A DNA stretch of 26,353 nt. Origin: a virus. Of the stretch, positions 2,380 to 26,353 are shown one piece after another. A program made the position numbers and the translations under genes. Positions within the stretch are counted from its first letter, which is position 1, and every line of letters begins with the position of its first letter. The stretch spans positions 1 through 26,353 of IMG/VR virus record IMGVR_UViG_3300033142_000849; one strand, written 5' to 3'. The notes beneath the pieces were generated by a model. It saw nothing but the letters and a program-made list of their open reading frames with translations, did not search any database and was not told the DNA's origin.

Positions 2380-3120
2380 ATGTCGGATAATAAAAAATAC
2401 TACTACCTAAAACTCAAGGATAACTTCTTTGAGCAAGACGCAATCCAAGCCATTGAGGGCGAAGAAAACGGATATATTTACTCAAATATAATCTTAAAAT
2501 TATACCTAAAGTCTGTTAAGCATGAAGGCTGTCTAAAAATAACCGAGGCCGTTCCATATTCCCCCGCTCAAGTTGGGATATTGGCAAAAGCTATTCACCA
2601 TGATATTGCACACGTCAAAGAGGCAATTAAAAAAGCTCTTGAATACGGCATTATGGCATTGGTAGACGGGCATGAGATGTGGTTTACAGATATTCAGAAT
2701 TATATAGGCCATTCAAGTACCGAGGGCGACCGAATTAAGGCACATAGAGAGAGATTAAAAAACCCTCAAAAGTATCGTAAACTCAAGGAAATAGAGGCGA
2801 CCGTACAAACGTACGACAAATGTACACCAGAGTTAGAGTTAGATACAGAGAGAGAAATAGAGATAAAGAGAGAGACAAAGCCAAAACCGCCCCGCCATAA
2901 ATACGGAGAGTATAAGAGGGTCTTGCTCACAGATGATCAACTCAACACCTTAAAAGCCTCTTTTCCTACCGATTGGGAGTCTCGAATTCAAAACCTCGAC
3001 GAATATATGGAGATGAAAGGCGCGACATATAAAAATCATTTACTTACTATCAAGAAATGGGCGCACAAAGATTTTATTAAAGCAAGGACTCGACCAATCG
3101 AGGACGTGGCGACGTTATGA
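2380..3120 (+). CDS. Phage replisome organiser (N-terminal Phage_rep_org_N-like)
   Basis: A 246-residue replication initiator-like protein. Residues about 5-125 match the phage replisome organiser N-terminal winged-helix pattern: KYYYLKLKDNFFEQDAIQAI, then a helical NIILKLYLKSV segment, then an LEYGIMAL/WFTDI wing, and the characteristic EGDRIKAHRERLK end. A charged linker (about 130-190) leads to a C-terminal LLTDDQLNTLKASF...YKNHLLTIKKWAHKD region, as in other phage replication proteins. Known relatives bind the phage origin and recruit host helicase machinery. The open frame extends upstream to 2212, but ATG 2380 has AAGGAG 5 bases ahead (2369-2374) and begins the conserved domain, so the upstream 56 codons are treated as leader. 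The stop overlaps the methyltransferase start by four bases. Confidence 0.85.
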   Translation: MSDNKKYYYLKLKDNFFEQDAIQAIEGEENGYIYSNIILKLYLKSVKHEGCLKITEAVPYSPAQVGILAKAIHHDIAHVKEAIKKALEYGIMALVDGHEMWFTDIQNYIGHSSTEGDRIKAHRERLKNPQKYRKLKEIEATVQTYDKCTPELELDTEREIEIKRETKPKPPRHKYGEYKRVLLTDDQLNTLKASFPTDWESRIQNLDEYMEMKGATYKNHLLTIKKWAHKDFIKARTRPIEDVATL

Positions 3121-3851
3121 AAATATTCAATGAAGATTGTATTCCGGCTATAAAGGCAATGAAAGAAAATCAATTTGATATTTGTATAACATCACCACCC
3201 TATAATATGAACTTGAGGATTATGAACGGCAAATATAAATCACGTCAAATAGTGCGGGAGTTGTCTACAAAATACATGGGATATGATGACAACCTTCCCA
3301 TGGATGATTATTTCGAGTTTTTGCGGGGCGTTGTCGCTGAGTTGGTTCGGGTTTGTGGTTTAGTGTTTTTTAATGTTCAAATAGTCACAGGAAACAAGCC
3401 ATCCATTTTCCGATTATTGGGCGAGTATCATGATCAAGTAAAAGAGTTGATTGTTTGGGATAAGACCAACGCCGAGCCATCAATTTCTGATGGGTGTCTC
3501 AATAGTGAGTTTGAATTATTGATTGTTTTTTCGTCAAAAGCATTGACGCGGGCCTTCTCTCCTGCTTATTTCGAGCGGGGGACACTGTCGAATATTTTTA
3601 GAATCAAAAAGGGTCGATCATCCGACCCCACCCATGGGGCGTCGTTCCCTGTTCAGTTACCTAGTAAAATATTATCAAACTTCGGCAAGCGGGGCGATTC
3701 TGTTCTCGATCCGTTTGCTGGGACTGGCACAACTGGGATCGCATGTCATGACTTTGGGTTTGATTTTACGGGTTATGAAATAAACCCGGAATATTTTAAA
3801 ACTATGCAGGGACGCATTAAAAGACACAGCGACCAAATGAGGCTATTATGA
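3117..3851 (+). CDS. Beta-class DNA methyltransferase (N6_N4_Mtase), TSPPY type
   Basis: A 244-residue amino-methyltransferase. Motif IV TSPPY (residues 25-29) precedes the AdoMet-binding motif I DPFAGTGTTG (198-207), which is the beta-class order; HGASFPVQLP (173-182) and GYEINPEYF (219-227) are also typical. TSPPY occurs in N4-cytosine enzymes but also in some N6-adenine ones, so the modified base is not settled. The variable region (about 35-165) would set the target site. No cognate restriction endonuclease sits beside it, which suggests a solitary phage enzyme for evading host restriction or for timing events. It overlaps its neighbours at both ends (ATGA), so it belongs to the replication operon. 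Confidence 0.93.
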   Translation: MKIFNEDCIPAIKAMKENQFDICITSPPYNMNLRIMNGKYKSRQIVRELSTKYMGYDDNLPMDDYFEFLRGVVAELVRVCGLVFFNVQIVTGNKPSIFRLLGEYHDQVKELIVWDKTNAEPSISDGCLNSEFELLIVFSSKALTRAFSPAYFERGTLSNIFRIKKGRSSDPTHGASFPVQLPSKILSNFGKRGDSVLDPFAGTGTTGIACHDFGFDFTGYEINPEYFKTMQGRIKRHSDQMRLL

Positions 3852-4826: not shown

Positions 4827-5609
4827 ATGATATATAGAGATCATTTTCAAAATTACAAATCTTACGGAATACCAAAAGCACAATTAATTATTGCGGATAT
4901 ACCTTACAATCTCGGTAATAATGCTTACGCCTCGAATCCGTCATGGTATAAAGACGGCGACAACAAAAACGGCGAAAGCAAATTAGCTGGGACTGAGTTC
5001 TTCGATACTGACAAGGATTTTCGACCCGCTGAATTCATGCACTTTTGCTCGAAGCTATTAAAAAAAGAGCCAAAAGAAAAAGGCAAATCACCATGTATGA
5101 TTGTTTTTTGTGAGTTTGAGCAACAATTTCCACTTATAGAATTGGCGAAGCGTTACGGATTAAACAGGTATATTAACCTTGTTTTTAGAAAAAACTTCTC
5201 AGCTCAAGTATTAAAGGCAAATATGCGGGTAGTTGGTAATTGTGAATATGCTCTAATCCTTTACAGGGAAAAATTACCAATGTTTAATAATTTTGGGAAA
5301 ATGATTTTTAATTGCATTGATTGGGAAAAAGACACAATGAGCGAAAAACTCCACCCAACACAGAAACCACTCGCGGTATTAAGCAAATTAATCAAGATAT
5401 TTACAAACGAGGGCGACGTAGTAATTGACCCATGCGCCGGGTCTGGTTCGACATTAGTCGCGGCAATTCAAAACAACCGGAAGGCGTTCGGATTTGAGAT
5501 TAAAAAGGATTTTTATTTGAAGGCGAAAAAATGGATTGATGATACCTCTAGTATTGGGATGGTTAAGGATAAAAACGCTCCGACATTTTTTGAAATGGAA
5601 AACGCATGA
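4827..5609 (+). CDS. Phage DNA adenine methyltransferase, DIPY type (beta class)
   Basis: A 260-residue enzyme of a well-conserved phage family. Motif IV is ADIPYNLG (residues 23-30), with isoleucine replacing the usual first proline of DPPY; NPSWY...NGES and FCEFEQQ follow, then SAQVLKANMRVVGNCEYALILYREKLP, HPTQKP (176-181) and the AdoMet-binding DPCAGSGST (201-209). IV-before-I order makes it beta class, and D-x-PY points to N6-adenine methylation. It has its own ribosome site (GCGAGGGG at 4812-4819). It is clearly distinct from the methyltransferase at 3117, so the phage probably modifies two different sites. No partner endonuclease is evident nearby. Confidence 0.93.
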   Translation: MIYRDHFQNYKSYGIPKAQLIIADIPYNLGNNAYASNPSWYKDGDNKNGESKLAGTEFFDTDKDFRPAEFMHFCSKLLKKEPKEKGKSPCMIVFCEFEQQFPLIELAKRYGLNRYINLVFRKNFSAQVLKANMRVVGNCEYALILYREKLPMFNNFGKMIFNCIDWEKDTMSEKLHPTQKPLAVLSKLIKIFTNEGDVVIDPCAGSGSTLVAAIQNNRKAFGFEIKKDFYLKAKKWIDDTSSIGMVKDKNAPTFFEMENA

Positions 5610-5908: not shown

Positions 5909-6115
5909 ATGGAATTAGCAGAAACGGTAAAGACACAAACAGAGGTTGATAAGTTAATAGCGGACATCAAAAAGCAGAATGAAATCATGAAAATAGCGCT
6001 AAGGTGTTCGTTTCCATATTTTCTGAGGTATGAACCAGAGGACGATAAGGATTATAAGCAGTGCAAAAAGATAGCTGATTCGATTAAGCAGATTTTAGAT
6101 AGCTTTAAATCATAA
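5909..6115 (+). CDS. Small helical protein of unknown function
   Basis: A 68-residue protein, largely charged helix (KTQTEVDKLIADIKKQNEIM, then DYKQCKKIADSIKQILDSF). A strong ribosome site (AAAGGAG at 5897-5903) lies 5 bases before the ATG and supports translation. The 39-base gap upstream holds nothing obvious beyond this site. No family is recognised. Confidence 0.75.
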   Translation: MELAETVKTQTEVDKLIADIKKQNEIMKIALRCSFPYFLRYEPEDDKDYKQCKKIADSIKQILDSFKS

Positions 6116-6129
6116 CAGGGGGAAACATA

Positions 6130-6312
6130 ATGACTATTTCATTTAATGAGATACCACCAGAGAAAAGGAAGAAAATACGGGAATTGATCGATAGCGGGGA
6201 GGATGTTTTTGAAAGGAAAAACTCTAATTTCTTTCGGAATTGGTGTCGGATTAACGCTGGAATGGACACTGACGCCAACCCCCTACCACCAGCACCCAAG
6301 GAGGCGGAGTGA
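6130..6312 (+). CDS. Small unknown protein upstream of nuclease
   Basis: A 60-residue basic protein (ISFNEIPPEKRKKIRELIDS at the start, proline-rich end). The GGGGGAA ribosome site at 6118-6124 is well placed. Its stop overlaps the GTG start of the nuclease-like gene (GTGA at 6309-6312), which indicates translational coupling. It could be a small accessory partner of that nuclease, but no family or motif confirms this. Confidence 0.72.
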   Translation: MTISFNEIPPEKRKKIRELIDSGEDVFERKNSNFFRNWCRINAGMDTDANPLPPAPKEAE

Positions 6313-6953
6313 ACATTCAAGAAAAAGGAAAACGTTTCGAGCGTAGAATAGCGAAAACGCTCTCGCAAATGTTCGGCCAGGATATACGACGGACTCCCAA
6401 TTCAGGCGGGTTATCTCTCAAAGGTGATATTATGACCGTTCAAGAAGGCCCGCTTAAACGCTTTCATTATGAACTCAAGCATCATGAAACGGTCAAAATC
6501 TGGGATTTCATCAAACAATCTCAAGCCGACGCTGACCCGGGGAAAATCCCGCTTGTTATATTTACCCGAAATCAGGCAGATGATTATGTCACGTTAAAAT
6601 TTGACGATTTTTTTAACTTAGTTAAGGAGTGCGAAGATATGAGATTATTATATAAAGAGAAGCAAAAACCCATGAGCGTCGAAGAGTTTGAGAAGGATTT
6701 CGGCGTCGAATTGCATGTCATTGCTAAAGACAGCGTATATTATGCAGAGTTCAAAGGAAAAGAAAAAGCGAACCCGATGTTTAAAGCAGAGTTGAAAAGC
6801 GAAGGTCATCAGCCTGTTATGGGTCATGAGAATCCGGCCGAGGCCGTTTCGCAATTATTTTCGCTTATCGAGGGTACTTACTCAGGCCGTGGATTTCCAA
6901 AAGACAAGCAAGATAAAAGAATTCCAGTGATTGAAGTACCAAAAAACCTGTAA
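6309..6953 (+). CDS. PD-(D/E)XK nuclease-like protein with extra C-terminal region
   Basis: A 214-residue protein starting at GTG 6309, supported by the GGAGGCGGA stretch just upstream. The N-terminal half carries the PD-(D/E)XK pattern in order: E11 in KGKRFERR, the RRTPNSGG loop, D40 in KGD, and E55-x-K57 in YELK, followed by a helical/strand end (IPLVIFTRNQ). This arrangement resembles Holliday-junction-resolvase-like and Mrr-type phage nucleases. Residues about 110-214 are a separate region with HENPAEAVSQLFSLIEG, which is like the helix of HicB-type folds, but this likeness is weak. Possible roles are recombination, DNA repair or branch cleavage before packaging. The gene closes the replication block; terminase follows. 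Confidence 0.75.
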   Translation: MNIQEKGKRFERRIAKTLSQMFGQDIRRTPNSGGLSLKGDIMTVQEGPLKRFHYELKHHETVKIWDFIKQSQADADPGKIPLVIFTRNQADDYVTLKFDDFFNLVKECEDMRLLYKEKQKPMSVEEFEKDFGVELHVIAKDSVYYAEFKGKEKANPMFKAELKSEGHQPVMGHENPAEAVSQLFSLIEGTYSGRGFPKDKQDKRIPVIEVPKNL

Positions 6954-6956
6954 TAA

Positions 6957-6965
6957 TGTTAAAAT
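6957..6965 (+). promoter_or_regulatory. Candidate extended -10 box (TGTTAAAAT)
   Basis: TGTTAAAAT lies just after the nuclease gene's stop and 10 bases before ATG 6976, at the boundary between replication and packaging genes. It matches the box at 9370 exactly. No convincing -35 is seen. It may start packaging/late transcription, or the match may be chance in AT-rich spacer DNA. Confidence 0.35.
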
Positions 6966-6975
6966 AAGGACTCAC

Positions 6976-7254
6976 ATGCATAAAACAATCTATTTCTTTT
7001 CTGGTGTTTTCAAGTTTATCTTTAGATCATCACCCGCCGCCGCCATTGTATTTTCAACAATATACGGAAACCCAAACCCAGGACTGGCCGCCGTCGCTAT
7101 TATTTACTTTTTCATGTATATATTGCAGATAGCCCGAACTCAAAAGGTCGAGGATAGGGCCGATAAAATACTTTTTAGCACTTTCGATGTTATACGCAAG
7201 AATAATTTAACCGTACGAACTCCAGGTGATTCGGACAATGAAAAAACCACCTAA
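6976..7254 (+). CDS. Small membrane protein preceding terminase
   Basis: A 92-residue protein with one or two hydrophobic segments (about residues 4-30 and 36-53: GLAAVAIIYFFMYILQIA) and a charged C-terminal tail. I chose ATG 6976 with AAGGA just upstream (6966-6970) over the in-frame ATG at 6931, which lies inside the nuclease gene. It overlaps the small terminase by 17 bases. No family is recognised. It could be a membrane-anchored accessory or lysis-related protein, but position gives no support for lysis. Confidence 0.75.
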   Translation: MHKTIYFFSGVFKFIFRSSPAAAIVFSTIYGNPNPGLAAVAIIYFFMYILQIARTQKVEDRADKILFSTFDVIRKNNLTVRTPGDSDNEKTT

Positions 7255-7708
7255 AGAAGAAACAAAAGCCGGATATTGGGACGACATTCGCGATTCTCTC
7301 GAAATATTAAAGAAAGCTAAAGACCGCACTGACTACACGAACAACCCGAAACAGCTCCTCGCTAAAGCCCTTGAGTATTTCCAGTGGTGCGACAACAACC
7401 CCATTGGTGACAAAGTCCGACCCTATACGGTCGCTGGTTTATGTATAAAGGGATTAGGCAGAGCCGGAAATTATCTCGCTGACCTAAAGGGTGACATTAA
7501 AAACGGTCAAATAGAAGAGAAGGACGAATTGTCCGAAGTCGTTGAGCTTATTTATTCAATTTGTGACAATCAAAAGCTCGAAGGGTCAATGGTTAATATA
7601 TTTAATTCCAATATTGTGGCTCGATTGTTGGGTCTCGTTGATAAACAACAGGTCGAAGAGAAGGGAAACATCACGCTAAATGTTAGCGAGGCCGAGGCCG
7701 ACGTTTGA
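7238..7708 (+). CDS. terS: Terminase small subunit (DNA-packaging)
   Basis: A 156-residue protein directly upstream of the large terminase. The region PKQLLAKALEYFQWCDNNPI, then RPYTVAGLCIKGLG, then an NQKLEGSMVNIFNSNIVARLLGL stretch is typical of one phage small-terminase group, where a helix-turn-helix binds the packaging site and the C-terminus contacts the large subunit. ATG 7238 is preferred over GTG 7226 because CAGGTGA at 7223-7229 forms its ribosome site. It overlaps the preceding membrane-protein gene and abuts the TTG start of the large subunit. Confidence 0.82.
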   Translation: MKKPPKEETKAGYWDDIRDSLEILKKAKDRTDYTNNPKQLLAKALEYFQWCDNNPIGDKVRPYTVAGLCIKGLGRAGNYLADLKGDIKNGQIEEKDELSEVVELIYSICDNQKLEGSMVNIFNSNIVARLLGLVDKQQVEEKGNITLNVSEAEADV

Positions 7709-9031
7709 TTGAAGCTAAATCCACGCCAAACAGAAGCGATTCAGTTATTAAATAATCCAGAGAAAACCTTCTATCTTCTCTACGGTGCGGCACGTTCAGG
7801 CAAAACGATGCTGATTTGTAGGTATTACATTCTCACGGCTATCAAATACCCTGGGTGCCGGTTATTACTCGGTCGGTTTCGCTTTAATCACGCTAAACTA
7901 TCAGTGTGGGTGCAAACACTCATGCCACTTGTAAAAGAAATGCTCCCGATTGGGTCGTATGAAGAGAACCGAACAGACTGGATTCTCAAGATAGGCGATA
8001 GTGAAATATGGCTCGCAGGGTTTGACGACAAGGAAAGGGCCGAGAAAATACTATCTATGGAATTCGCCAGGATAGCAATTATTGAAATGTTTCAGATATC
8101 ATTCGAGGTGTTTGAGATATTACGCTCCCGGCTGAATTCGCCTAGAAATATAGTCGACCAAAAAGGGAATCGAATAGCCACTAAAATGATCGGAGACGGT
8201 AACCCTCGAGGTAAGAAACATTGGACATATAGAGTTTTTCTGTTAGGCGTTCACCCTCAAAAGAAAGGCGAAGAGATTAAGAAGTACGAACGATACGCAA
8301 ACATGAAGTTTAGGACTGAGGACAACGAGCATAACTTGTCCGATGGATATATAGAGAACAATCTCGACTCATTGTCAGGTGTACGATTAAAGCGTCTGAG
8401 GTATGGAGATTTCGCCGATGAGGTGGAGGGCGGTGTCTATAAGTTTGACCGAGCCGTCAATCACGTTGACAAGATAATAGAGTATGACCCGAATTTACCT
8501 ATTTGGACGGGGTGGGATTTCGGTATTGCCTCCGATCAATTTATATTCGTGGCTCAAGTGGCAAAGACTCCCATGGGGCCGGAGCTTCGAATTATCAATG
8601 AGTACGTCGAGAACAATAAAGACTATATGCACTATCGAAACTGGTTATTCAATCAAGGCTACAATATGAACGGAGCGAGACATGCGGGCGACCCTGCCGG
8701 ACGCTCAAGGGACGCTAAACTCGAGAGCTGGTTTTCTTTATTGGATAGTGTGGGAATACAACTAGAAAGCCCGTCGCGTAAATTCAGGCCCGCTGATATG
8801 ATCGACGGTGCGAATAGAATTATGCAGTATGTGAGAATTAACGAAACTCAATGCCCCGACATGGTGGAAATGTTTGAAAATTGGGCGTTTCCACAGGACA
8901 AAGACGGAGCAATTAAAGAAGGTGTTTTACCAGAGCATAATAAATTTTCTCATCCAGGTACGGCGTTTTATTATACGACTTCAATGATATGGCCCCCGAG
9001 AAAAATTAGGTATAGTGTGTCAGAAATATAG
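7709..9031 (+). CDS. terL: Terminase large subunit (TTG start)
   Basis: A 440-residue packaging motor. The ATPase half has Walker A GAARSGKT (residues 26-33) and a Walker-B-like AIIEMFQIS segment in place of the more usual DEA/NEA sequence. The nuclease half has GWDFG (D270) and AGDPAG (D328). The usual third acidic position, in a HxxDAxxY pattern, reads HPGTAFYY with T418 where Asp is expected. The TTG start immediately follows the small-subunit TGA, implying coupled translation. The enzyme translocates DNA into the prohead through the portal and cuts concatemers. The overall assignment is certain; the missing acidic residue needs an alignment, since a neighbouring acidic residue might substitute. 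Confidence 0.95.
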   Translation: MKLNPRQTEAIQLLNNPEKTFYLLYGAARSGKTMLICRYYILTAIKYPGCRLLLGRFRFNHAKLSVWVQTLMPLVKEMLPIGSYEENRTDWILKIGDSEIWLAGFDDKERAEKILSMEFARIAIIEMFQISFEVFEILRSRLNSPRNIVDQKGNRIATKMIGDGNPRGKKHWTYRVFLLGVHPQKKGEEIKKYERYANMKFRTEDNEHNLSDGYIENNLDSLSGVRLKRLRYGDFADEVEGGVYKFDRAVNHVDKIIEYDPNLPIWTGWDFGIASDQFIFVAQVAKTPMGPELRIINEYVENNKDYMHYRNWLFNQGYNMNGARHAGDPAGRSRDAKLESWFSLLDSVGIQLESPSRKFRPADMIDGANRIMQYVRINETQCPDMVEMFENWAFPQDKDGAIKEGVLPEHNKFSHPGTAFYYTTSMIWPPRKIRYSVSEI

Positions 9032-9385: not shown

Positions 9386-10963
9386 ATGCCTTACACACCT
9401 TTAAACCTCAAGAAGACCGCCGACAGAATATCACAGTTTGGCCGTGACTCTTTAAAGATCGCCGTTCAAAATAAGATTGACATATATAACGATAATTGGA
9501 AAGACCAACTCCTGCAAGAATTACGCGGCCAGTTCTCACTTAAAACCTGGGAGCGGTTGAAACTTCTCGCCTCGATTGAGTTTAACATTTTCAAGCGTGT
9601 TATCAACATGACTTCGATGGTATACAAAAACCCGGCCATGCGTCGGGCATTGCTACCCACAACAGAGAAGCCCGTCGAAGGTGTCAAGGTCGCCCCAAAA
9701 GAAGATCAAAATTATTCTGATATGATCGGGGCGTCTGATATTAACGCCGTCATGCCTCAAGTCAATCGGATGGTAAACGCTACAAATCAAGTGTTGGTTC
9801 GTCCTGTTGTCCGTGATGGTCGTATGGAAGTCGACATGTTCACCTTCTCGAATGCAGAGATAATTGTCGACCCAGATGATTGGAAGCGGATTATAGGTGT
9901 CAAGTTTTACACTGGACAATCACTGCCTATTAATTACACGTATGATGAGACTGTCGCAGATAAAAAAGCCGATGAGAAACCCACAAGCAAAGCGACAGAC
10001 ATAAATCAATCAGCCGTCAGTGATTATGACAAAGCAATTATATTCTTGCTTGAGAACAAAGACGCTAAAGGCAAATATCAAGATTGCATGGTCTATACAA
10101 TGGTCAACAAAAACGGAGTTGAATACTCCGAAACGCCGCCCGAAAAATGTGACTATAAAGACAAAGACGGGCGGCCCGTTATACCTTTTCTCCTTTTTTG
10201 GAGAGAGTATCCCACCCTCGAGCTATTAGACTTCACAACTGGTAATGATTTGCTTGACGCCAATATGACATTCGCTATGGATATGACACACTTGCGGTAT
10301 TTGAAGAAATTCCAGTCTTACAAGGTAATGACATGGCGAACCCGCGACAAGTCGAAAATGCCGAATACAATCACAATCGACCCCGGCTCATTGACAGTCG
10401 AAGAGGACAGCGAAGGAAGCGGGAACACTGGCCTTGAAGTTATCGACCTCCAGGCTGATATAAAATCATTCTGGGAAACCAACAAGGACACATTGACTAC
10501 TTTTTTGACGAACTATAATATAAGTCCTGAGAACTTCACAATGTCTGGGAATCCTCAGTCTGGATTCGCCGCTAAAATAAGCCGTGAAGGACAGATGGAA
10601 GCTAGACAGGCTCAGATTCCAGTATACCGAGAGCGTGAAACCGCCCTATTTAATGTTATGCGAATTGTCTGGAATACTGACGAACCGACGAAGAAAATAA
10701 GTGAAGACGCGAAGTTTGATATTAACTTCGGAGAGATTGACGTACCAATGTCAGCCGACGAAGAAATGAAACAAGATACATTCGATATTCAGAATAACGT
10801 TATAACCCCAATTGATATAATTCAACGAAATGACCCCGACCTCGACGAAAAAGAAGCCGTTGAAAAGTATCTTAAAAACAAGGCGTTTAATAGTTCCCAA
10901 CGTGGGACACTGACACCGCCGGAGCAACCGGGAAATGGCGTCACCGAACCAGATAATACTTAA
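9386..10963 (+). CDS. Portal protein
   Basis: A 525-residue protein in the canonical place after terminase and before a minor head protein. The N-terminal part (QFSLKTWERLKLLASIEFNI, then FKRVINMTSMVYKNPAMRRA), a central stretch with IIVDPDDWKRIIGVKFYTGQ, and a C-terminal acidic segment (DPDLDEKEAVEKYL) resemble SPP1 gp6-like and related siphovirus portals. It would form the dodecameric ring through which DNA enters and leaves the capsid. It has no good ribosome site. It overlaps the next gene by 29 bases. Confidence 0.88.
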   Translation: MPYTPLNLKKTADRISQFGRDSLKIAVQNKIDIYNDNWKDQLLQELRGQFSLKTWERLKLLASIEFNIFKRVINMTSMVYKNPAMRRALLPTTEKPVEGVKVAPKEDQNYSDMIGASDINAVMPQVNRMVNATNQVLVRPVVRDGRMEVDMFTFSNAEIIVDPDDWKRIIGVKFYTGQSLPINYTYDETVADKKADEKPTSKATDINQSAVSDYDKAIIFLLENKDAKGKYQDCMVYTMVNKNGVEYSETPPEKCDYKDKDGRPVIPFLLFWREYPTLELLDFTTGNDLLDANMTFAMDMTHLRYLKKFQSYKVMTWRTRDKSKMPNTITIDPGSLTVEEDSEGSGNTGLEVIDLQADIKSFWETNKDTLTTFLTNYNISPENFTMSGNPQSGFAAKISREGQMEARQAQIPVYRERETALFNVMRIVWNTDEPTKKISEDAKFDINFGEIDVPMSADEEMKQDTFDIQNNVITPIDIIQRNDPDLDEKEAVEKYLKNKAFNSSQRGTLTPPEQPGNGVTEPDNT

Positions 10964-11684
10964 TACAGTCAAGCAAGTCGGAGATATAGCCGACGAAAAT
11001 ATCCTCGCTCTCGAGGGTGTCATGGCTGATTTGGAGCGTCGATTAATAGCCGACTTCTCAAGAATAACCACCACTCAGGGTGTTGACGTTGCTCTCGCTC
11101 GCTCTCAAGTTGAGGCCATGCTGGTAGAGGCTGGATATTTCGAGCGGGTCGATTCACTTGTAAACAAATCCTTTCAGGCAGAGATTGAACTCGCTCACGG
11201 AAAATATAAGGCTTTATATAACGAATCGTTTCAGTTTTCAGCCGATAGCATGGCACGTTTAGGCGTTATCAAGCAAATGACATTCGCTGATTTTGGCGGT
11301 ATTGCTGACGATATGACAAAGGGAATAGCCCGAGCGGTCATTGATAACCAATTCGGGGCAACTGATAAATTAACGCTTATTAGTGATATAGCAAAGCAGA
11401 CACAAAAAACAACGAACCAAGCAAAGACGATTATTGACACAGCGACCCATGGTTATTATCAGGAAGCGAATAACAAATTGGCAGAGGATAATGGATTTAC
11501 TCGTTATGTACCTGTTGGCCCGCTTGACAATAAAACAAGGGATTTTTGCGCCGCTCAAATGAGTGACCCTTCGCCACGTACAAAAGCAGAGATTCAAAGT
11601 CTAGACAACGATCAAGGGTTGTCTGTATTGACTTATTTCGGCGGGTATAATTGCCGCCACATTTGGGAACCTATCCGTGGTTAA
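10935..11684 (+). CDS. Minor head protein, SPP1 gp7/Mu F-like
   Basis: A 249-residue protein. The C-terminal part (about 190-247) carries the MuF signature: YVPVGPLDNKTRDFC, a GLSVL segment, and GGYNCRHIWEP with the conserved Cys-Arg-His. The N-terminal two thirds are helical. In SPP1 and Mu this protein binds the portal and a few copies enter the prohead, where it aids DNA exit and correct head size. The overlap with the portal gene is typical. Cysteines C208 and C240 (approximate numbering) are part of the conserved motif. Confidence 0.88.
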   Translation: MASPNQIILNTVKQVGDIADENILALEGVMADLERRLIADFSRITTTQGVDVALARSQVEAMLVEAGYFERVDSLVNKSFQAEIELAHGKYKALYNESFQFSADSMARLGVIKQMTFADFGGIADDMTKGIARAVIDNQFGATDKLTLISDIAKQTQKTTNQAKTIIDTATHGYYQEANNKLAEDNGFTRYVPVGPLDNKTRDFCAAQMSDPSPRTKAEIQSLDNDQGLSVLTYFGGYNCRHIWEPIRG

Positions 11685-12244: not shown

Positions 12245-13633
12245 ATGAAATACTTAATTGCTTTATTTTTATTTTTATCTCCCTTGTTTGCTGGGAATAC
12301 TGTCATATATGGCATTAACACAAACCACGACCCCCGAGCGGTTAGGGTTGATGATTACGGGAATCTAAATATTACTAATGTAAACGAGGTATATTCTGAG
12401 TCATCGGTCACAAATTCAACAACCAACACATTGACAGCTAATTCTGTATTTATTGGCGGGGCTGATGATGTTAGTGAGTATTCAGCCATAACAATATTAA
12501 TTCACTCAGACGCCCCGAGCGCGACAAATGGCTTAAAAATACAATTTAGTGCAGCCGCTTCTGTTTGGCATATCGGCGAAGAGTATACAATCAAGTCTAA
12601 CGCCACAAAGTTTTTTACCCCGCCGATTCAAGCTAAATACATGCGTATTATGTATTCGAATGGTTCTCAGTCTCAGACTGAATTCAATATCCACACTATG
12701 CTCAAAAAATACCCGATTAAATGGTCAAGTCATAATATAGCCGAGCCGATTGTAGACGAGGATGACTCAGAGCTTGTTAAGGCGGTGTTGACTGGCAAGG
12801 ACCCTGGCAACGGTTATCTAAATGTAGCCGTCACAGCCGACGGTAATCTTGCCATATCAGATAATTCCAGCGGGTTATCTATTGCTCAGGGAAATGTATC
12901 GGGGGCGTCATTTATTCATAAATTTGGAGCAACAGGTCCAGATGGAGGTTTTGACGTAGCCGACGGATTCGTTACTGTATGGGATGGAGCCGAGGATGGA
13001 ACAGCATGGGAGGCTATGAACTATACCTATTCAGCAACCGCCGATATTGACGGATTGTCCTCAACAGGAACAACAGATGGGCAATTAATAGAAATTCAAG
13101 GCCTTGATTCAAGTTCTAATTTAATAATTCAAACCGTAACATTAACGGGTCAGACTCCGGTCGCCATTCCTACTAATTTGCTCCGAGTATTCAGACTAAA
13201 AAATATTAGCTCAACAAATCTGACAAATCATGTTTTTTGTTTTGTAAACGGTGGAGGGTTGACAGGTGGGGTTCCAAATCTCGCCACAAACATTAGAGCT
13301 ATTATTCAGCCTAACAATAATCAAACACTCATGGCTGTCTTCACAATTCCAGATGATGGGGCGGTTGGTTATATGCGGGATTGGTACGCATCAACAGCGG
13401 GGGCAAAGAGAGATAGCACTCACACAATAAAAGTATTGGCCCGTCCACCGGGTGGAGTTTTTCAATTAAAACATATTGCGAATATTTCCGTTACTGGAAC
13501 ATCATATATCCAACATAGATATATTGAACCTGAAGTATTTTCAGCGGGTACTGATATAGAAGTTCAAATGGACACAGATCAAGACGCCGCCGGGGTTGCC
13601 GCTGGATTTGATATAGTTTTAGTAGAAGAGTGA
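12245..13633 (+). CDS. Exported beta-rich protein in head gene cluster
   Basis: A 462-residue protein with a Sec signal peptide: K2, a hydrophobic core LIALFLFLSPLF, and a likely cleavage in FAG/N near residue 17. Residues about 27-43 (HDPRAVRVDDYGNLNI) resemble segments of phage virion proteins that carry a conserved VxDxxGNL stretch, and the rest is beta-rich with many N, T, S and G, like decoration or fibre proteins. It lies between head-morphogenesis and scaffold genes, and has promoter-like boxes on both sides, so it may be an independent cistron or moron. Possibilities are an exported surface protein expressed from the phage, or a virion protein with an unusual leader. No known family is assigned. 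Confidence 0.85.
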   Translation: MKYLIALFLFLSPLFAGNTVIYGINTNHDPRAVRVDDYGNLNITNVNEVYSESSVTNSTTNTLTANSVFIGGADDVSEYSAITILIHSDAPSATNGLKIQFSAAASVWHIGEEYTIKSNATKFFTPPIQAKYMRIMYSNGSQSQTEFNIHTMLKKYPIKWSSHNIAEPIVDEDDSELVKAVLTGKDPGNGYLNVAVTADGNLAISDNSSGLSIAQGNVSGASFIHKFGATGPDGGFDVADGFVTVWDGAEDGTAWEAMNYTYSATADIDGLSSTGTTDGQLIEIQGLDSSSNLIIQTVTLTGQTPVAIPTNLLRVFRLKNISSTNLTNHVFCFVNGGGLTGGVPNLATNIRAIIQPNNNQTLMAVFTIPDDGAVGYMRDWYASTAGAKRDSTHTIKVLARPPGGVFQLKHIANISVTGTSYIQHRYIEPEVFSAGTDIEVQMDTDQDAAGVAAGFDIVLVEE

Positions 13634-14344: not shown

Positions 14345-15325
14345 ATGGCAATTTCACAATATACGGATCAAATCGACCCGCAAAACATCATAGCCGTAAT
14401 GGGCAAAAACTGGCTTTATAACACTAAACTAGTACAGGGAGCGCCGAATATTTTTATTCGTGACGTGCGACCCGTTGAAGGTTCTCTTACGACTACAGTG
14501 AGGAATAAGTTTTTTCAAGGCTCATCCGGTCAGGTAGTCGCCCCCGGTGCGGCAATTTCAAGCGTCGGACGTGTTCAAAACTCTGAGATTCACCCTATCA
14601 TATGGCGTGACGGAGCAATTGACGAAGACTATAAAATCATGGACGTTATCTCTAAAGCGTCTGGAGCACAGAGCATGGAGGCTGAATACGTTCAAGCGTG
14701 TAATGATGCCGCTTCTCAGTGGTTCGAAGATGCTTTCATTAAAATGATTGAAGGTGTCGGAGCCGCTATCACTGCAAACCAAACAGGGTCAGGTGCTATC
14801 GTAACGCTTGCCGGAATGATTGCCGCGAAAGCCGCTCTCGCTGATAATGGTCTGGTTCTACAGGGTGGAGCAACCCTAATGAATTCGGCTATCTATTGGA
14901 AGCTTGCTGGCCTCGGTGTAGTCGCCGCAACTTCTAATACTTTTGGTAATGCCGCTCAGGACGCCATGGTTCAAAGTGGGTCACTTCCTGAGACTGTTGT
15001 AGGACTCACTCCTATAATGAGTGACAAAGTAACCGCCGCCCCTTCAAGTAAAAATTATGTTTACTTCCTTGGGCCAAATTCTGTTGTTGTCCGTGGTAAC
15101 GATTCCGCTGATATCCGGATGGCTGATAAAACAGTTATCAAGGAACAGGGAATGGTAACTACTCTCCGTCTCGCGTTTGGTCTAGGTGCTAGAAACGCAA
15201 CATGGGGCAAGGCCGCTTCTGTTAATATTTCAGATACCGACCTGTCAACAGCGGCTAATTGGAGCGGATCAGACACTAACGATAAGTATGTCCGAATCGC
15301 CCGATACCACACTAACGAAAGTTAA
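14345..15325 (+). CDS. Major capsid protein (HK97-like fold)
   Basis: A 326-residue protein directly after the scaffold. Length, position and patterns (APGAAISSVGRVQNSEIHPI, IWRDGAIDEDYKIMDVISKA, then an alpha-helical QWFEDAFIKMIEG spine, and a C-terminal MVTTLRLAFGLGARNATWG) match siphophage coat proteins of the HK97 fold. There is no long N-terminal delta domain, consistent with the separate scaffold. It forms the icosahedral shell. An AACAGGAA ribosome site lies 6 bases before the ATG. Confidence 0.9.
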   Translation: MAISQYTDQIDPQNIIAVMGKNWLYNTKLVQGAPNIFIRDVRPVEGSLTTTVRNKFFQGSSGQVVAPGAAISSVGRVQNSEIHPIIWRDGAIDEDYKIMDVISKASGAQSMEAEYVQACNDAASQWFEDAFIKMIEGVGAAITANQTGSGAIVTLAGMIAAKAALADNGLVLQGGATLMNSAIYWKLAGLGVVAATSNTFGNAAQDAMVQSGSLPETVVGLTPIMSDKVTAAPSSKNYVYFLGPNSVVVRGNDSADIRMADKTVIKEQGMVTTLRLAFGLGARNATWGKAASVNISDTDLSTAANWSGSDTNDKYVRIARYHTNES

Positions 15326-15347: not shown

Positions 15348-15791
15348 ATGAAAAAAATATCATTTGTATCTATTATAATCCTTCTCAGCGTGGCCCTGCT
15401 TTTTGCGGGTCGCGTTCGGGAACGTACCATAGCGACTACAGTCACCGCAAGCATGAGCACAGGAAACAACGTAGCATCAACCAATATCCTTATTGGGTAT
15501 ATGTCTCCTAATTCTGTGATAAGCTCTATTGACGTGCTAACATCAACGGCGTTTGATTGTTCAACAAATAACTACTTGGACATATTCGCCATTACTGAGT
15601 CTACCACAAATCAATATGTGAGCGACTATGATATGGTAGCCTTGAACACTGTTTATATTGCAATGACAAACGTCGGGTCGATTGAAAGCACATCGTACTC
15701 CGTCCCTGTTTACGCGCAACTATCATTCAGTGGTCATTCTAATGTGTCGCTTGGTGAGGCTAAAATCGTAATTAATTACGTACAATTTTAA
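15348..15791 (+). CDS. Second exported beta-rich protein, next to the capsid gene
   Basis: A 147-residue protein with a clear Sec signal peptide: KK at residues 2-3, the hydrophobic core FVSIIILLSVALLF, then AG/R. The cleavage region LFAG matches that of the protein at 12245. The mature part is beta-rich with S, T, N repeats and no lipobox. I chose ATG 15348 with GAAGGAA at 15335-15341 over the TTG at 15333. In this position many phages carry a head decoration protein, so it may be a decoration-like protein with a leader, or an exported accessory. No family is recognised. Confidence 0.82.
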   Translation: MKKISFVSIIILLSVALLFAGRVRERTIATTVTASMSTGNNVASTNILIGYMSPNSVISSIDVLTSTAFDCSTNNYLDIFAITESTTNQYVSDYDMVALNTVYIAMTNVGSIESTSYSVPVYAQLSFSGHSNVSLGEAKIVINYVQF

Positions 15792-15976
15792 TGCCCGAGA
15801 CTGAGATAGATTCTCATAAGAGTTTCGAACATGTAAAACGAAAGGTAGACGCCGCCGTCAAAAGTGGCGAGCTACCACGTGAACAAGCCCGAGAAGTGAT
15901 TAATCAAGCTAGAAAGTCATACTCAAATAACGATTACAATCGGGCAATTTCTAAACATAACAGGAGTAGAGAATAA
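15791..15976 (+). CDS. Small charged protein, unknown
   Basis: A 61-residue, highly charged helical protein (SFEHVKRKVDAAVKSGELPR, then EQAREVINQARKSY). Its start overlaps the previous stop (TAATG at 15789-15793) and its stop overlaps the next start (TAATG at 15974-15978). It is part of the head-tail operon but fits no family I recognise. Confidence 0.78.
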   Translation: MPETEIDSHKSFEHVKRKVDAAVKSGELPREQAREVINQARKSYSNNDYNRAISKHNRSRE

Positions 15977-16458
15977 TGGCTGAAACAAAAACGCCCCCGG
16001 TGGGCAACGAAGAGAAGAAACCCGAGATTAAAAAAGCAACATTGACAGTCGGAGAAAACGCCGTCATTGTTGACCGTGTGTCACCCGATGGCGTACATCT
16101 GGCAGTTAATCCTTTAAACATTGATATGTCAGGACAATTTTTCCCAACTCACTATTGGGAACAATGTACCAGTGTTAAAGGCAGGGACGTGTTAAGCGAT
16201 ACTACTTTCGCCGTTCGTATCGAGGCAACTCGGAAAGTTGAGAGTCAATTGGTTGTGGCTAAGAATGCCGAACTTGAGAAGGCTATCGCAAAAATGGACA
16301 ATGACAAAGTTGAGTCATTAATCGTTGAAATTGGAAAACTTAAACAGACCCCGGCCCCTGATTATCTAGTCGAATTCGACATTAAAAAGGGCCGTGAAAA
16401 ACTACAGGAATGGAAAAAATGGCAACAAAGCAGAGCGGATATACCTCTAAATACGTAA
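15976..16458 (+). CDS. Head-tail region protein, unknown
   Basis: A 160-residue protein with a disordered, lysine-rich N-terminus, a mixed central domain (LTVGENAVIVDRVSPDGVHL and FFPTHYWEQC) and a helical, charged C-terminal half. It overlaps the next gene by 40 bases. Position between capsid and connector suggests a head-completion or internal protein, but nothing identifies the family. Confidence 0.78.
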   Translation: MAETKTPPVGNEEKKPEIKKATLTVGENAVIVDRVSPDGVHLAVNPLNIDMSGQFFPTHYWEQCTSVKGRDVLSDTTFAVRIEATRKVESQLVVAKNAELEKAIAKMDNDKVESLIVEIGKLKQTPAPDYLVEFDIKKGREKLQEWKKWQQSRADIPLNT

Positions 16459-23903: not shown

Positions 23904-25343
23904 ATGGCGGCAACTAAAATATTAAACTCGGAAATGATAAACGTTCCTTTCCAATCTCCCGTCTATTCTCGGGCTCATCGGGAAAACTACAAAACCCTAC
24001 AGAATCATTTCAATGAATTGTATGACCGTATCACGGAAGTAGCCACGGCAACACCGAGCGGGACGGAAGTAACCGACGCGAGAGATTATGCCACCGTCTT
24101 ACAACAAAGAAACCAATTAGCTGGCCGTTTATGGTCCAACGAAGTGATTGACGGCTTAGCAGTTGCCGAACAATCAGTACCTGATATGACAGTCCAGATT
24201 GCGGCTGGTAGTGCTTCCATTAATGGTACGCTTTGTTATAGGGCCGCATCAAGTAATACGGGCACAATCACAGCTCCCACGAATTCCAGATATGACGTTG
24301 TTGTCCTTAATTCAGACAACACTATATCAGTATCAACGGGCAATGATAGCGTTAATCCAATTTTACCAGCAATATCCGTCACTCAAAGGCCACTCGCGAT
24401 AATATCCTTAACTAGTACCGATGTCACAATAACCAGCTCCATGATAACGGCATGCAAGGCTCAGGGTGCTATATCGACTGACAATACCAATACAGATAAA
24501 TGGCATTGGTATATTCAGGACGCTATCGACGCTATTGACAACGATTCCGGCGGTACGGTAATTGTAAACCCAGGCAAGTATTACGAAGAAATTGATATCA
24601 CTGGTAAAAATTATCTAACCATTGAACTTTCCCAGGGGGCAAAGTTGTATCGGCAAGCACCGACAGCCGAGGTATTATTGAGTATAAACACGGTAGGAAA
24701 CGAGACAACGGGCAACCGCATCATCGGGGGTTCTTTTTTTGGAAACTCTAAAGCGGGAGCCAAGGAACTTGTTTCGATTGACTATACTGATAATTTTATA
24801 TGGCTCGATTCTGTCTTAGATGATAACGCCATATCAACGGCGACGTATAAATTATTCACGATAGATAATAGTGATGGATTTCACCTCAAATCTCTCGTAT
24901 ATAGTGACTCCACCAATTCAAATATAGCCACCTCAAGCGGGTATCTGGAAGACGGACACCACAAAGGCGAGGTTGTTTTTTGTGGGACAACTGGTGAAAA
25001 AGCAAGCATGCTTAAAAATGGATGGCTCGAATTATCTGCCGCTGATGCTAGGTTCCCGAGGGTTAATAATGCGGCGGCTGGCGGTACGGGTGGATCTGAC
25101 ACGAAAGATTTAGAACATAATCACAAGTGGTATACATTTACAGGTGAAGATGCGTATTCAGGACTTGATAAGAATAGCGGGGTAGATGATGGAGCATCGT
25201 CTTTTGATGTTGATGGAGTTGAGCAAGATTGGCCTACTGGTGGTGGGAGTCTGGAAGTTGATCAATGGACAGCAAATGGGAGTTCAGCAACTCAAGATAT
25301 TAAACCAGCATATTACGAACTAATAGCACTTATTCATAGGTAA
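23904..25343 (+). CDS. Tail fibre/receptor-binding protein with beta-helix and collar-like C-terminus
   Basis: A 479-residue fibre protein. Residues about 1-185 form an N-terminal virion-attachment and shoulder region (VQIAAGSASINGTLCYRAAS, YDVVVLNSDNTISVSTG, ISVTQRPLAIISL), a pattern common in phage fibre proteins. Residues about 200-345 (WYIQDAIDAIDNDSGGTVIV, NPGKYYEEIDITGKNYLTIE, then SGDG-like turns) resemble a right-handed beta-helix as in pectate-lyase-like spikes. The C-terminal part (ADARFPRV, GGTGGSDTKDLEHNHKW, KPAYYELIALIHR) resembles phage tail-collar domains with the HNH metal-like motif. It probably binds a host surface glycan; no catalytic residues can be assigned. Confidence 0.8.
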   Translation: MAATKILNSEMINVPFQSPVYSRAHRENYKTLQNHFNELYDRITEVATATPSGTEVTDARDYATVLQQRNQLAGRLWSNEVIDGLAVAEQSVPDMTVQIAAGSASINGTLCYRAASSNTGTITAPTNSRYDVVVLNSDNTISVSTGNDSVNPILPAISVTQRPLAIISLTSTDVTITSSMITACKAQGAISTDNTNTDKWHWYIQDAIDAIDNDSGGTVIVNPGKYYEEIDITGKNYLTIELSQGAKLYRQAPTAEVLLSINTVGNETTGNRIIGGSFFGNSKAGAKELVSIDYTDNFIWLDSVLDDNAISTATYKLFTIDNSDGFHLKSLVYSDSTNSNIATSSGYLEDGHHKGEVVFCGTTGEKASMLKNGWLELSAADARFPRVNNAAAGGTGGSDTKDLEHNHKWYTFTGEDAYSGLDKNSGVDDGASSFDVDGVEQDWPTGGGSLEVDQWTANGSSATQDIKPAYYELIALIHR

Positions 25344-25349
25344 AAATTA

Positions 25350-26353
25350 ATGAAAAAAATAATTCTCATCATTCTATTTCTCGTCGGTTGTAATACACTC
25401 CCGGCACAATATACGAATATTCCCGTCAGGTCAAATCTATCGCCGATAATTATAAGCTCAGACATGAACCAAGCCATGGAAAACATGCGATATTTAGGCG
25501 GGTATATTACAAACATTTACACGAATTTTACTATTCCAGACGGCGACCAAAACGGAATATATAATGTTTATTGTTATGGTACGAATCTAACTATCACTCT
25601 TCCTCTAGCATCAAATAATGTGGCGAAACGAATCACAATAATGAGGCCAGAGGGTAGCGGAGGTTTAGCAATAGAAGCTCAGGGAGTTGATACAATTAAT
25701 GGATTATCTTCAAACGTACTCTCGAATGCTTTCGATTATCGTTCATTTTATTCTGACAACTCGACATGGCTGATTGATTCCAGTGTTGGCGGTGACGGAA
25801 TATTTCTACCATTAGCGGGTGGAACGATGTCAGGCGATATAAACATGGGCAGTAGTTTTATATCAAATGTGCCCGAGCCGACGCATTCAAATCATGCTGT
25901 AACAAAGTGGTATAATGACAATGCTACAAATGGAATACCCGAGCACATGTCAACTTTATATGATATGACTAGAGGTGGTGGTTTGGTTTCTTTTGGGCGA
26001 GAAGTTCGCATTGGGCTAAATCAGGCATTTCCGCAGACGTTGGCCGCATATGGGTCGATTGAAGCATATAAGAATATAGGGTTTAAAACTACTGGATTAA
26101 CAATTAGTAATATTGCAGAGCCAACGTATTCAAATCATGCCACGACAAAATTCTATGTTGATTCAGCTACAAACGGTTTAAGCGGTGGAGGCGGGGGAGT
26201 ATCATCAACTCCAATTACATTACGTGGTAATGCCTATGTTAAAACAAATATAACCGGCTTTCTATCGCCTGCCGATACTTCTATAAAGTCTGTAAGGGCA
26301 ACTGTTGGAACAGCACCAACAGGCAGAGATATATTAATTGATTTCACAACAGG
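25350..26353 (+). CDS. Second tail fibre, lipobox N-terminus, runs off window
   Basis: Frame open from ATG 25350 to the window end (334 codons), with no stop, so the gene is 3'-truncated. The first 14 residues (MKKIILIILFLVGC) are a lipoprotein signal with a perfect lipobox L-V-G-C, C14 being the predicted lipidation site. The mature part has two tail-fibre repeats: PLAGGTMSGDINM at 154-166 with ISNVPEPTHSNHAVTK after it, and ISNIAEPTYSNHATTK from 252, the well-known fibre repeat. A later part (TNITGFLSPADTSIKSVRAT, then APTGRDILIDF) resembles C-terminal fibre-related domains. If lipidated it would be tethered to a membrane, which is not expected for a virion fibre. Confidence 0.85.
   Translation, partial: MKKIILIILFLVGCNTLPAQYTNIPVRSNLSPIIISSDMNQAMENMRYLGGYITNIYTNFTIPDGDQNGIYNVYCYGTNLTITLPLASNNVAKRITIMRPEGSGGLAIEAQGVDTINGLSSNVLSNAFDYRSFYSDNSTWLIDSSVGGDGIFLPLAGGTMSGDINMGSSFISNVPEPTHSNHAVTKWYNDNATNGIPEHMSTLYDMTRGGGLVSFGREVRIGLNQAFPQTLAAYGSIEAYKNIGFKTTGLTISNIAEPTYSNHATTKFYVDSATNGLSGGGGGVSSTPITLRGNAYVKTNITGFLSPADTSIKSVRATVGTAPTGRDILIDFTT

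Follow-up and report, generated by a model that had tools for sequence, protein, structure and literature searches.

The DNA analysed here, from an uncultured tailed phage, is an entire IMG/VR viral record of 26353 bases, hereafter the window. Its last ORF, located at 25350-26351 on the + strand, begins with ATG, comprises 334 codons and is open at the 3′ end of the record. The corresponding protein starts with MKKIILIILFLVGCNTLPAQYTN. The features of this region are the following.

23904..25343, + strand: preceding gene, 479 aa, fibre- or collar-like by position and by its C-terminus ...KPAYYELIALIHR
25350..26351, + strand: fibre-like ORF of 334 codons, running off the end of the record
25350..25391, + strand: putative lipoprotein signal peptide MKKIILIILFLVGC, with an LVGC lipobox and Cys14 at 25389-25391
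25434..25508, + strand: residues 29-53, NLSPIIISSDMNQAMENMRYLGGYI, which by eye seem to resemble a phage fibre N-terminal segment
25515..25778, + strand: residues 56-143, 'ITLP...TINGLSS...FYSDNSTWLID', probably beta-rich
25818..25847, + strand: fibre motif GGTMSGDINM, residues 157-166
25875..25919, + strand: fibre motif EPTHSNHAVTKWYND, residues 176-190, NHAxTKxYxD type
26118..26162, + strand: fibre motif EPTYSNHATTKFYVD, residues 257-271, NHAxTKxYxD type

The start at 25350 is located 6 bp past the preceding stop, with AGGT slightly upstream, and no promoter-like site was found on the + strand in 24900-25700. The preceding gene (23904-25343) gives no family match and has no signal peptide; its position and C-terminus suggest a role in receptor binding.

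The N-terminus of the terminal ORF has the sequence attributes of a lipoprotein. A charged KK n-region (MKK, residues 1-3) is followed by an uncharged hydrophobic core (IILIILF, residues 4-10) and by a lipobox of the form [LVI][ASTVI][GAS]C (LVGC, residues 11-14), the predicted cleavage context being MKKIILIILFLVGC followed by NTLP.... In lipoprotein signals the Cys is commonly found from about residue 15 onward. With Cys at residue 14 and an h-region of about 7 residues, the present signal is short, at or just under the usual minimum; it has a precedent in the 124-aa ORF at 109-483 of L136, located just upstream of terminase genes, whose lipobox-like N-terminus likewise places Cys at residue 14 in the lipobox-rule scan. 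Among the 2117 phage ORFs scanned, each at least 100 aa long, four match the rule against 0.26 expected after N-terminal shuffling, which rules out a chance lipobox and confirms the one that the first-pass annotation had reported at residues 11-14. The 25350 ORF is the sole fibre among these four and by far the longest. From its N-terminus we soundly infer that the protein would be lipidated and tethered to a membrane. In E. coli, an Asp after the Cys bears on lipoprotein sorting; the residue after Cys14 is Asn, so that sorting to the outer membrane would be allowed by this rule, which may not be that of the host.

The remainder of the ORF appears to be of tail-fibre type, as indicated by its repeat motifs and its place in the tail module. 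The fibre repeats announced at first pass are present, with NHAVTKWYND and NHATTKFYVD occurring downstream of GGTMSGDINM. By sequence similarity, the PHROG matches are families of fibres, of decoration proteins and of virion proteins without assigned function (phrog_30390, E 8.6e-8; phrog_2647, head decoration, E 2.4e-5; phrog_26630, tail fibre, E 0.0036), and Pfam yields no match. Residues 56-143 look by eye like common virion-fibre segments and are probably beta-rich, and residues 39-48 form a weak helix in a low-confidence AlphaFold2 monomer model (mean pLDDT 48).

Tail fibres with LAGGTMSGDI and PTxxxDAxTKxYVD repeats (phrog_30390, phrog_26630, phrog_16122) resemble the 25350 ORF in motifs and gene position, but ordinary LAGGTMSGDI fibres (95/96) have no export signal. 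This count comes from a LAGGTMSGDI scan of viral contigs in which 96 fibre ORFs whose 5′ end is intact were retained, including some near-duplicates: a signal-peptide-like N-terminus occurs in one (L115) and a lipobox in none. The best N-terminal hydrophobicity peak of the set is 2.32, against 2.92 for the 25350 ORF. When the set was widened to 101 distinct ORFs with fibre motifs, two carried a signal (L115 and L233), neither of them with a lipobox. The initial premise that fibres of the virion lack export signals holds in general, such signals being present in about 1-2% of sampled fibre ORFs, but L213, which is the same phage as L115, is an apparent exception.

Two contigs unrelated to the window show a comparable layout. 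In L213, a fibre-like protein of 1000 aa (6001-9003) has a Sec-type signal and an ATG that overlaps the preceding stop; it matches the virion structural family phrog_16122 (E 7.7e-21) and looks like the main fibre of that phage. A VanY/M15-type peptidase is encoded shortly downstream. In L233, a gene for a 344-aa signal-peptide protein (10358-11392), with GGTMSGDINMG near its end, starts 9 bp behind that of a 1279-aa tail protein and is followed by a membrane-like ORF. Both proteins share with the 25350 ORF a Sec-type signal, a GGTMxGDIN motif and a place directly behind a tail or fibre gene, but their signals are of type I, without a lipobox. Nothing was detectable in common with the 25350 protein beyond the short motif. 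Given this lack of relatedness, the signal-peptide fibre-like gene behind a tail gene is a recurring layout that arose more than once.

Searches for relatives covered viral, phage, plasmid and genome collections and returned no syntenic relative. In viral contigs, peptide-pattern scans based on the fibre, the terminase and the head protein recovered no relative; a genome scan with the terminase and a plasmid search were equally negative. In phages, tblastn recovered nothing beyond the GGTMSGDI motif of Achromobacter phage Motura; by this search and the peptide-pattern scans, no phage homologue extends along the full length of the 25350 protein. A degenerate NHAxTK scan retrieved five viral contigs and one Saccharibacteria contig, the latter open at its 5′ end, and none of the six contains a signal-bearing fibre. 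The terminase profile identified 80 loci, none of which has structural genes (portal, capsid, tail or others) in common with the window. In a partial search of the literature, seen mostly as titles and the beginnings of abstracts, no tailed-phage fibre with a lipobox surfaced, which is weak evidence of novelty.

The window encodes two further signal-bearing proteins of virion type, both in the head region.

12245..13633, + strand: SP462, Sec signal MKYLIALFLFLSPLFA followed by G; DUF6385; C-terminal half a phrog_8198 / cyanophage tail-fibre-type domain
14345-15325: major head protein gene, adjoining SP147
15348..15791, + strand: SP147, 147 aa, Sec signal MKKISFVSIIILLSVALLFA followed by G; immediately behind the gene of the major head protein

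In SP462, DUF6385 narrowly exceeds the Pfam cut-off, and the C-terminal half also matches cyanophage proteins, which some records list as tail-fibre or virion structural proteins. The relative in cyanophage MA01 (258 aa) has this domain without a signal peptide; the signal of SP462 therefore appears as an addition to a virion-type domain in the present phage. SP147 matches phrog_20969, labelled Rz-like spanin (E 9e-7). This identity was rejected on the position of the gene, right behind the capsid gene and outside any lysis cassette. Its AlphaFold2 model (pLDDT 56) is, like that of the 25350 fibre, too poor to be used for a fold search. In L175, a 139-aa signal-peptide protein (15743-16162) is likewise encoded 10 bp behind the capsid gene; it does not align with SP147, and the common post-capsid place is thus an analogy. 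Across 83 terminase-related loci (1188 ORFs), ten signal-like hits were obtained, never more than one per locus, and five of them are terminase N-termini and hence false. The window has three signal-bearing virion-type proteins against at most one in each of these 83 loci; two of the three were included in that tally, and the 25350 fibre, whose 3′ end is open, was for this reason left out of it. At the level of sequence, the group of exported fibre- or decoration-like proteins envisaged in the first-pass annotation is borne out.

Phage lipoproteins encoded next to receptor-binding genes are known to block the receptor, as do T5 Llp (PMC9586334) and Cor (PMC13164509). The T5 llp gene is adjacent to and downstream of pb5 (PMC9586334), and the cor locus lies immediately downstream of the tail fibre genes in HK022, N15, ES18 and phi80; exclusion by Cor also keeps progeny from adsorbing to the remnants of lysed cells (PMC13164509). 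In T5 Llp and the Cor family (T1, phi80, N15, HK022), the lipoprotein gene adjoins a receptor-binding or tail-fibre gene, as it putatively does at 25350. The differences are nevertheless substantial. Llp and Cor are small and devoid of fibre motifs, whereas the 25350 protein exceeds 334 aa, contains such motifs, and has no Pfam match and only fibre, decoration and unknown-function PHROGs. Their mode of action is to bind an outer-membrane receptor, FhuA or another, on its periplasmic face and to block it, with no fibre displayed. T5 Llp is made early, whereas the 25350 gene looks late. The size of the 25350 protein would require a different mechanism and, since it departs from Llp and Cor in both size and sequence features, the relationship is one of analogy and not of membership.

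The union of a lipobox and fibre motifs in one chain, encoded directly behind a tail gene, is rare though not unique, and suggests that the protein has its site of action in the infected cell's envelope, instead of or in addition to the virion. Together with the lack of a promoter-like site, it points to a late, envelope-anchored protein. The gene is probably co-transcribed with the tail genes, late in infection; the protein would be exported by Sec, lipidated on Cys14 and held in the envelope of the infected cell. Its fibre segment would face the periplasm or the cell surface, where it would most likely bind or mask a surface ligand. Such masking could prevent adsorption of progeny or competing phages to the dying cell and to cell debris, a task of the Llp/Cor kind carried out through a fibre domain. 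We assign a probability of about 0.42 to this reading of the 25350 gene as encoding a late, Sec-exported, Cys14-lipidated and envelope-anchored fibre-like protein that binds or masks a surface ligand. Receptor occlusion, or a decoy function, would be the leading role by analogy of gene position. An exclusion role leaves the signal peptides of the two head-region proteins unexplained. Also against this reading, the C-terminal part, in which a receptor-binding domain would be expected, lies beyond the end of the record.

Other explanations deserve consideration. The protein could be an ordinary virion tail fibre, kept from export by fast cytoplasmic folding or trimerisation, its N-terminus serving as a tail adaptor or a membrane-touching tip. 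The tail-operon position and the fibre motifs agree with this, as does the signal-like N-terminus of the main-fibre-like protein of L213. A perfect lipobox, going beyond mere hydrophobicity, is nevertheless hard to account for in these terms, such N-termini are exceptional among LAGGTMSGDI fibres, and the same phage has two more virion-type proteins with Sec-type signals and cleavage-like sites, which together make an ordinary fibre rather unlikely. An error at the 5′ end, either translation from M39 (25464) or a join to foreign sequence close to the end of the contig, could be invoked for an incomplete gene located at that end, all the more as the segment from M39, MNQAMENMRYLGG, could be a fibre N-terminus. 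M39, however, has no Shine-Dalgarno-like sequence, in contrast to the AGGT and close spacing found at 25350, and no alternative ATG, GTG or TTG was found between the two. The 38 upstream codons would moreover form a lipoprotein signal by chance, and such an error is highly improbable.

Exported proteins with fibre-like domains are common in bacterial genomes. The 25350 gene could accordingly be a moron, or a gene of host origin lodged downstream of the tail genes, whose product would serve cell-surface adhesion or act on host physiology and would have no part in phage adsorption. The failure to find a full-length phage homologue and a slightly lower GC content in the 5′ part of the ORF (0.37-0.38 against about 0.42 in its surroundings) are in line with such an origin. 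It is at odds with the 6-bp coupling to a tail gene on the same strand, with the lack of a promoter-like site of its own and with the two other signal-bearing virion-type proteins, and we regard it as improbable. These two proteins also raise the question of export as a feature of the virion itself. The host's export machinery might carry several proteins of virion type, namely SP462 of the head region with its fibre-type domain, the post-capsid SP147 and the putatively lipidated tail-type fibre, so that part of the phage's surface coat would be shown on the envelope or would join the particles outside the cytoplasm, an idea that we consider quite doubtful. In its most specific form, in which all three are decorations that pass the envelope and join the particles at or after lysis, it is more doubtful still. 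The signal-free occurrence of the SP462 domain in a cyanophage, the place of SP147 directly behind the head protein gene, paralleled by the unrelated L175 protein, and the number of such proteins compared with the 83 loci all argue in its favour. Head decoration, however, is normally cytoplasmic, and the partial literature search revealed no tailed-phage precedent; the earlier proposal of a fibre attached after export finds no precedent there either, and is supported by nothing more than the presence of three signal peptides in one phage.

The putative envelope-anchored fibre-like protein retains its interest for several reasons. The arrangement is real and rare, and probably corresponds to a phage-encoded envelope lipoprotein of a new variety. 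The receptor-blocking phage lipoproteins hitherto described, Llp and Cor, are small; one containing a tail-fibre domain would occupy receptors, or trap rival phages, in a novel manner. A signal-peptide fibre-like gene following a fibre or tail gene, as in the window, L213 and L233, provides a simple search rule for finding more. That one phage has three virion-type proteins with signals is more intriguing than the 25350 fibre alone, and bears on whether tailed phages export structural proteins through the host.

Several features were observed elsewhere in the window. The record opens inside a run of pentapeptide repeats (2-150). In a phage early region, the ORF at 340-705 weakly matches a receiver domain of response regulators (E 0.0045, under the curated cut-off). 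The ORF at 1410-1919 contains the N-terminal domain of a dATP/dGTP diphosphohydrolase (E 1e-31), an enzyme of the nucleotide pool. One early region contains two genes (3117-3851 and 4827-5609) for DNA methyltransferases of phrog_67 type.
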